A stretch of DNA of 33,278 bases, from contig VEOV01000332.1 in the NCBI GenBank assembly GCA_012026855.1, positions 1 to 33,278 on the forward strand, in the 5' to 3' direction. The position numbers and the translations under genes were made by a program. The DNA is from Geobacter sp. (GTDB lineage Bacteria > Desulfobacterota > Desulfuromonadia > Geobacterales > DSM-12255). Each line of letters opens with the position of its first letter. Positions within the stretch are counted from its first letter, which is position 1. The notes beneath the pieces are model-generated. The model was not told the DNA's origin. It was given only the letters and a program-made list of their open reading frames with translations, and ran no database searches. Positions 17,293 through 19,243 of this stretch are shown piece after piece.

Positions 17293-17580
17293 ATGAGAAT
17301 TACCCGCAAAGAGGTCGAGCATGTTGCCCTGCTGGCCCGCCTGAACCTTGCCGAAGGGGAGCTGGAGACGTTTACCGGCCAGATGGATGCCATCCTTGCC
17401 TACGTGGACAAGCTGAACGAGCTGGATACCGACGGCATTGTGCCGACTTCCCATGCCGTGCCGATGGAGAACGCTTTCCGGGCTGACGAAGTACGGCCGT
17501 CCATTGGCACAGACAATGCCCTGGCCAATGCACCTGACAGGATTGAAGCCTTCTTCCGCGTACCCAAGGTAATTGAGTAG
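17293..17580 (+). CDS. gatC: Asp-tRNA(Asn)/Glu-tRNA(Gln) amidotransferase subunit C
   Basis: MRITRKEVEHVALLARLNLAEGELETFTGQMDAILAYVDKLNELDT; adjacent gatA/gatB. Confidence 0.96.
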   Translation: MRITRKEVEHVALLARLNLAEGELETFTGQMDAILAYVDKLNELDTDGIVPTSHAVPMENAFRADEVRPSIGTDNALANAPDRIEAFFRVPKVIE

Positions 17581-17585
17581 CAAAA

Positions 17586-17737
17586 GTGACGGCGCGAGCC
17601 GGATCGAACGGAAACAGCCGGGGCTTCCGAGATGACGTAAAAAGCGCCTGACTGCCTGACATGATGACAGCTGTCGAAGTCGGCACTGCGGGTATGGAAG
17701 CAGAGGCGTTGCAGTGAGAGCCGGTTCGCGCCGTTAC
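17586..17737. repeat. Inverted-repeat element between gatC and gatA
   Basis: GTGACGGCGCGAGCCGG (17586-17602) pairs with CCGGTTCGCGCCGTTAC (17721-17737), 17 bp with two G-U wobbles in the plus-strand RNA. Confidence 0.85.
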
Positions 17738-17785
17738 AATACTCGAAATAATTGAGATTTCCCCCAAATTTGGAGAATTTTGCCA

Positions 17786-19243
17786 ATGGAACTTTTTGAT
17801 CTGACCATTCACGAGCTGCACGCCAAGTTGAAAACGAAGGAAATCTCCTCGGTGGAGGCAACCAAAGCCTGTCTGCAGCGCATTGAAGCGACCGATGAAC
17901 GGGTGAACGCCTTCATCACCGTTACTGCCGATTCGGCGCTGCAAGCGGCTGCCGCGGCTGACAGCCGGATCGCCCGGGGGGAGATGGACCTCCTTACCGG
18001 CATCCCGCTGGCGCTCAAGGATATCTTCCTCACCAAAGGGATCAGGACCACCTGCGCCTCGAAGATTCTGGCGGATTTCACCCCCCCTTACGACGCCACC
18101 TCCTGGGGCAGGCTGCAGCAGCGGGGCGCCGTCCTGCTTGGCAAGCTGAACCAGGACGAGTTCGCCATGGGCTCCTCCTGCGAGTCCAGCGCCTTCGGGG
18201 CAACCCGCAACCCCTGGAACCTGGAGTGCATTCCCGGCGGCTCTTCCGGCGGCTCGGCCGCTGCCATTGCCGCCCAACAGGCCATTGCCACCCTGGGGAC
18301 CGATACCGGCGGCTCCATCCGCCAGCCAGCCTCCCACTGTGGCTGCGTCGGCCTGAAGCCGACCTATGGCCGGGTCTCCCGCTACGGCGTCATTGCCTAT
18401 GCTTCCTCCCTTGACCAGGTCGGCCCCATGACTCGTGACGTACGCGATGCCGCCATCATGCTCGGTGCCATTGCCGGCCACGATCCTCTGGACTCCACCA
18501 GTGTCGACTGCGCCGTGCCCGATTACACCGCTGGGCTGCAAGGCGACCTTAAAGGGGTCAAAATCGGCCTCCCCAAAGAGTACTACATCGACGGTCTTGA
18601 CCCGGATGTGAAGAGCGCCATGGACCGGGCCATTGCCACCTACCGCGCCCTCGGTGCCGAGTTTGTCGACATCTCCCTCCCCAACACCGATTACGCCGTG
18701 GCCTGCTACTACCTGATCGCCACTGCCGAGGCCAGCTCCAACCTGGCCCGTTACGACGGCGTTCGCTTCGGTCATCGCGCCGCTGACGCCAAATCCCTGG
18801 CCGAAATGTACCGCCAAACCCGGGCCGAGGGGTTCGGCACAGAAGTGAAGCGGCGGATCATGATCGGCACCTACGCCCTCTCTTCCGGCTATTACGACGC
18901 CTACTACATCAAGGCCCAGAAAGTGCGGACGCTGATCATGCAGGACTTCCTCAAGGCGTTCGAATCAGTGGATGTCATCCTCACCCCGGTGGCGCCGACC
19001 CCGGCCTTCAAGGTCGGCGAAAAGACCGCCGATCCGCTCCAGATGTACCTGTCCGACATCTTCACCATCCCGGTCAACCTGGCTGGCACCTGCGCCATGT
19101 CCATCCCGGCCGGCAGCAGCGCCGCGGGCCTTCCCATCGGCTTGCAGCTGATCGGCAAGCCGTTCGGCGAGGCAGAGATCATCCGCGCTGCCTATGCCTT
19201 CGAGCAGGCGACCGAGTGGCACAGACAAAAGGCGCAGCTCTAA
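17786..19243 (+). CDS. gatA: Asp-tRNA(Asn)/Glu-tRNA(Gln) amidotransferase subunit A
   Basis: Amidase signature [38 protein letters not shown] 17786 with GGAGAA upstream. Confidence 0.97.

Follow-up and report, generated by a model that had tools for sequence, protein, structure and literature searches.

A MITE family with IS1380-type ends in Geobacterales and its probable old copy in the gatC-gatA spacer of a Geobacter sp.

In this work we present the analysis of a hairpin lying between gatC and gatA of a Geobacter sp., within a window of 33,278 nucleotides (the whole stretch of DNA that was analysed). Most probably we see in this hairpin an old and decayed member of a non-autonomous MITE family of the Geobacterales, moved in trans by an IS1380-type transposase. 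The existence of a MITE family with ends of the IS1380 type is well supported. This family of small gene-less hairpin elements in Geobacter-like bacteria is previously uncatalogued, the multicopy sequences already described from Geobacter having been compared with it by description only. Obtained results tie an unexplained class of palindromic repeats found in Geobacter-type genomes to the IS1380 transposon family via termini, duplication length and empty sites, and they offer a rare test case of a MITE with an internal structured core better conserved in place than its surroundings.

Methods

The genome of origin was searched over 2.57 Mb (82% complete). A covariance model was built from 10 copies of the element, and the gene context of each copy was assigned by a simple gene caller.

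Results

The hairpin of the gatC-gatA spacer

In the initial annotation an inserted, structured inverted-repeat element was proposed for a spacer of about 200 bp between gatC and gatA, the gap from gatA to gatB being given as 21 bp. Measured gaps are 205 bp (17581-17785) and 21 bp (19243/19265), and the arms of 17 bp each are found as described (17586-17602 and 17721-17737), with both non-Watson-Crick positions forming G-U pairs in the plus strand. The features of the region are as follows.

17293..17580, plus strand: gatC, 95 aa (PF02686, E 1.7e-22), last codons GTA ATT GAG TAG
17570..17577, plus strand: left copy of TAATTGAG, within the gatC coding sequence (C-terminal codons)
17577..17746, plus strand: whole element; boundaries approximate, the ends being set by comparison with relatives whose CCTGAATCCGTGACG termini are intact
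17586..17602, plus strand: left arm of the outer stem P1, GTGACGGCGCGAGCCGG, from P1 pairing across 66 copies
17603..17624, plus strand: 5' strand of the core, ATCGAACGGAAACAGCCGGGGC, with purine-rich internal-loop strands GA, GGA and GGG; identical in the G005 ortholog
17625..17699, plus strand: apical region of about 75 nt, variable in sequence and nearly constant in length, with no detectable structure
17700..17720, plus strand: 3' strand of the core, GCAGAGGCGTTGCAGTGAGAG, with internal-loop strands AGA, GCA and GA; identical in the G005 ortholog
17721..17737, plus strand: right arm of P1, CCGGTTCGCGCCGTTAC
17749..17756, plus strand: right copy of TAATTGAG, missing at the orthologous insertion in G005
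17786..19243, plus strand: gatA, ATG start (the frame 17780-19243 matches PF01425, E 7.1e-166)

The predicted fold of the plus strand has an energy of -74.3 kcal/mol (z = -5.0), a value equalled in none of 200 shuffles, and that of the minus strand reaches z = -3.1. A GGAG at 17772-17775 (plus strand) lies outside the hairpin and is likely the gatA ribosome-binding site, start codon and site both being read from the sequence; the hairpin in the gat transcript leaves this site free.

Distribution of the family

A search of the same and related genomes, proposed at the outset, identified a dispersed repeat, which bears out the proposal of an inserted element. At the DNA level about ten further places in the own genome carry two conserved blocks separated by about 75 nt. 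The covariance model recovered 10 full copies of a hairpin element of about 166 bp there, the gat copy being matched at 17580-17745 (131 bits, E 6.7e-33). Elsewhere it matched 47 times in the congener G003 (about 50), 5 times in G002 and once in G005, with two adjacent weaker matches in G039. Single-copy, unconserved sequence with no compensatory changes, the outcome set against the element in the initial annotation, is thus not what was found: the element is multicopy and its arms covary in 66 copies. In a pattern scan of named genomes, Geobacter sp. Bin_37_8 was among the Geobacteraceae MAGs that carry the family; pattern matches in Polaromonas and Saprospiraceae MAGs, which gave no model match, are ascribed to chance.

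In a 395-genome sample of the phylum there were zero matches apart from the own genome. The window holds no gathering-level Rfam match, and over the elements no Rfam model reached its gathering score, even at E <= 5; no tRNA or tmRNA was found. A search for an ORF-carrying full-length version with the same core returned none, every right-half motif in the family genomes belonging to an already known element, and in the matches listed paired termini occur at element length or as mini-hairpins of about 45 bp and at no other spacing.

The copies lie in tight gaps, often no more than about 10 bp from a stop codon and with 15-60 bp left to the following start, beside genes as unrelated as those for cobalamin synthesis, pstB/phoU, tgt/rlmN, groES, tadA and an efflux operon. 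Several copies stand as close pairs separated by 14-51 bp: the two members are inverted in L112 and L133 (G003) and tandem in L137 (G039). On contig C309 of the own genome two opposite copies (L009:1376-1542:- and 2473-2641:+) bracket a pstB-like ABC-transporter ATPase gene located between a permease gene and phoU; the Chunjie element, discussed below, has also been reported from a phosphate-uptake operon. The gap separating an outer-membrane efflux gene from its hlyD-like partner holds L106 in G003 and L136 in G002, in opposite orientation, which suggests independent insertion at a hot spot. L052 and L053, considered as a shared locus, lie on opposite sides of the gene and are not orthologous.

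Anatomy of type I copies

The copies of the gat kind, here type I, consist of an outer stem P1 of about 20-26 bp followed by a core of short helices with symmetric purine-rich loops, in the order A/G, UC/GA, GA/GA, AC/GU, GRA/GCA, AAC/GUU, bulged A, GCC/GGC, GGG/AGA and GC/GC. The core is capped by the apical region of about 75 nt, nearly constant in length and with no detectable structure (mean z -0.4 over 66 copies), its pairwise identity being 0.36-0.40. The core loops are nearly invariant, while the sequence of P1 and the apex vary. In three G003 copies (L108, L109 and L114) the apex hosts another repeat, nested within it, CCCCCCTC.GTCCCCC...GGGGAGATTTAGAGGGGTTT.

Two known structures were considered for the core and dropped. 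It bears what we take to be a resemblance to domain V of group II introns (GAGCCGUAU...ACGGUUC), dropped because the position of the AGC triad differs among copies. For an integron attC site the conservation is in the wrong place, internal and not in end boxes.

Termini, target duplications and empty sites

Within the order, another family gave weak matches to the model that turned out to be relatives (type II), which carry a AGCCGGGGC/GCAGAGGC motif and perfect CCTGAATCCGTGACG termini; the view of these matches as unrelated palindromes was rejected, types I and II having the terminus and the AGCCGGGGC/GCAGAGGC motif in common. The P1 terminus in G003 is TGAATCCGTGACGG, therefore the two types have common ends. 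Type III subfamilies and the mini-hairpins of about 45 bp also end in CCTGAATCCGTGACG. Two of the latter, L204 (G091) and L205 (G003), consist of the two termini alone, and L204 is flanked by a perfect 5-bp duplication, AATTT.

Filled and empty orthologous sites of type II elements were found in five species of one genus, with 5-bp duplications TTAAA, ACGCC, TCTAC/TTTAC and CATTT/CATTA. Among 67 terminus-bounded elements, the flanking 5-mers match at 4-5 of 5 bases in 24, where 1.9 are expected and the maximum in 500 permutations was 7. For type I, lengths and offsets were scanned blindly, and the highest score (z 5.3) falls exactly at the predicted offset and length of 5 bp; flank identity there is only 0.38 against 0.27, so most of the duplications have decayed. 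The family is multicopy, lacks a transposase gene and shows presence and absence at orthologous sites, as is characteristic of MITEs.

An intact insertion sequence of 1692 bp was found in G010, a genome of the same family (C6:2759-4450, duplication ATATA). Its transposase matches PF13701 and NF033539, 'IS1380 family transposase' (E 1.1e-87), and its terminus is identical at 15 of 15 positions to type II and type III elements, with which it has nothing else in common. At least two further repeats in G010 (L206-L216) start with the same terminus at contig ends and are probably other copies of this insertion sequence collapsed in assembly. No IS1380 transposase (E <= 1e-5) turned up in G003, in G002 or in the own genome, which is 82% complete, so that the genomes rich in type I do not show the mobilising enzyme.

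The terminal inverted repeats CCTGAATCCGTGACG, present at both ends in relatives, are degraded in the gat copy, the outer 9 bp or so having been degraded or replaced on the left, where the gatC stop abuts, and no 5-bp duplication is recognisable. Since the outer terminus is lost and the duplication is not recognisable, membership of the gat copy in the MITE family is based on the family alignment. The 8-bp direct repeat TAATTGAG, earlier thought to be a possible target-site duplication, does occur at 17570-17577 and 17749-17756, but it is not such a duplication: that of the family is 5 bp long, the left copy consists of conserved GatC codons and the right copy is absent in G005. The GatC C-terminus V-I-E-stop is kept in relatives that have no element of this family.

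The orthologous insertion in G005

The single match in G005, a member of another genus, groups with the gat copy in the tree (76% identical to it, the next copy being at 62%), the gatC and gatA flanks of the two align on both sides, and both have a common left end running into the gatC stop. Judged by these alignments, the G005 insertion is orthologous to the gat copy. P1 has changed by single-sided substitutions that keep or break pairs about equally, and its one double change ends in a mismatch; a compensatory change between the gat orthologs was for that reason rejected.

Discussion

Is the core under selection?

Once the MITE origin is accepted, the question is whether the structured core has acquired a role. 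That the copies arose as MITEs and the core was later recruited as a functional motif of RNA or ssDNA, with core and stem selected on the plus strand of the element, is quite possible, and we put it forward tentatively. At the orthologous gat sites the two strands of the core match throughout (31/31 and 32/32 nt, together 63/63), whereas the apical loop keeps about half of its bases. Within genome G000 core identity is 0.91, against 0.40 for the apical region and 0.56 for the outer part of P1, with P1 still 94% paired. Together with the largely decayed type I target duplications, these data suggest selection on the core in place, on the basis of one orthologous pair and inference. The other side of the balance is that this pair of type I copies is a single one, that its P1 changes are single-sided and indifferent to pairing, and that young copies of a constrained master could account for some of the conservation.

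The strand bias bears on the same question. The initial annotation took the G-U pairs of the arms, A-C mismatches in the opposite strand, as a sign of structure in the gat transcript. The asymmetry is real across the family: on the plus strand of the element the inner P1 mismatches are 56 G-T against 15 A-C, and the minimum free energy of this strand is the lower one in 55 of 66 copies. It is, however, not specific to gat, as it follows the plus strand of the element in antisense copies too (22 G-T to 5 A-C among those in operons; lower energy in 19 of 23). Such independence of operon orientation is in favour of a functional core, but antisense copies, half of those in operons, would not yield plus-strand RNA from their operon. 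Moreover, when independent events between sister copies are counted, the bias is weaker (31 G-T to 13 A-C, or 25 to 13 without one column, p 0.07).

Still more specific, and rather unlikely in our estimate, is the proposal of a transposon-borne structured RNA or ssDNA motif with a core recognised by a host or transposon factor and selected at many sites, which would make the copies dispersed functional elements unlike those in Rfam.

Covariation of the arms

Covariance modelling, also suggested initially, gave a 66-copy alignment in which 93% of paired cells are complementary, compared with 80% after shuffling and at most 49% when one side is slid, and in which all 25 pairs of the outermost helix, P1, have changed on both sides. 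It is possible that this covariation is an artefact at the DNA level, produced by quasi-palindrome template switching in replication without any selection on RNA. Sister copies differ by 24 double Watson-Crick changes, and 11 of these are transversions, with no G-U route between the two states; template switching in a palindrome can produce them without selection, which weakens the case for a functional core. Some copies have wholly different yet matching arms, as would be expected from such a mechanism. Template switching, on the other hand, predicts neither the invariant unpaired core loops nor more G-T than A-C mismatches, nor loops rich in purines on one strand. It could account for some of the covariation between the arms. 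A functional core would make the family a class of structured elements that Rfam lacks and that transposition has spread; without such a function, the family shows cleanly how palindrome mutagenesis mimics RNA covariation.

The gat operon and other readings

A cis-acting leader or attenuator, riboswitch-like or ribosomal-leader-like and specific to gatA expression, is very improbable. The gat copy is in sense orientation, folds with z -5.0 and is found at the same place in two genera; nevertheless, the same element stands beside unrelated genes and is antisense about equally often (26 sense, 23 antisense, 11 divergent and 5 convergent copies), and it has no Rfam match. Riboswitches and mRNA leaders were rejected, there being no fixed orientation and no functional relation among the neighbouring genes.

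Comparison of gatC-gatA spacing in relatives, which the initial annotation had recommended, points the same way. A palindrome of some kind is present in the gap of nearly every relative having that gap, usually of an unrelated kind; one relative has a gap of only 42 bp. The gap of G006 is short and lacks a palindrome. The gat element is absent from G001 and G003. A different hairpin, GTAGGGGCG...CGCCCCTAC, occupies the spacer in G001, G007 and G010 (L062, L068 and L070), a GGTTGAGG palindrome that of G003, and yet other palindromes those of G002 and G009. The spacer is therefore a tolerant landing site, and the attenuation or processing role specific to gat, raised in the initial annotation, is unsupported.

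A palindrome of the REP/RAYT kind mobilised by a Y1 single-strand transposase, which the palindromic, intergenic, multicopy and strand-asymmetric nature of the family might recall, is hardly credible, because REP/RAYT elements insert without duplication whereas here 5-bp target duplications occur and the terminus is identical to that of a DDE-type IS1380 element.

We thus return to the decayed MITE. An IS1380-type transposase would have moved the elements in trans, and the gat copy persists in the operon because an element that lands after a stop codon and ahead of the following ribosome-binding site is tolerated. Co-transcribed with gat, it would form a stem of about 17 bp followed by the internal-loop core and the loop of about 75 nt, a hairpin that is probably a target for RNase III-type processing, by analogy with the Correia elements considered below. 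More tentatively, selection may keep the invariant plus-strand core, as structured RNA or as ssDNA bound by some factor.

Comparison with known systems

The closest relation is to insertion sequences of the IS1380 family, of which ISEcp1 likewise makes 5-bp duplications (PMC2887853). The MITEs have the same target duplication length and, as regards the G010 insertion sequence, the same CCTGAATCCGTGACG terminus (15/15); they differ in having no transposase gene and an unrelated internal sequence, so that they are not internal-deletion derivatives.

Correia/NEMIS of Neisseria and ERIC of enterobacteria resemble the gat family in being short, intergenic and bounded by inverted repeats, with a stable hairpin; they have other termini and other hosts, and the invariant internal-loop core and arm covariation set the gat family apart. 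RNase III cleaves the transcripts of Correia elements, and ERIC has an effect on the stability of mRNA (reviewed in PMC10969869), and by analogy with Correia/NEMIS, processing of the gat hairpin by a double-strand nuclease is plausible.

Within Geobacter itself, Chunjie, described as a MITE of Geobacter uraniireducens of 178-235 bp, multicopy and found in a phosphate-uptake operon (Chen et al. 2008, as cited in PMC10969869), is likewise a multicopy Geobacter MITE. CCTGAATCCGTGACG at <=1 mismatch has no copy in the two complete genomes G035 and G022, which by their size could be G. uraniireducens and G. daltonii, and for this reason Chunjie is probably a different family. The 'multicopy nucleotide sequences' of G. 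metallireducens and G. bemidjiensis, families of unknown function (PMC2700814, PMC2996986), are, like the gat family, palindromic, intergenic and multicopy, a likeness that is one of description only.
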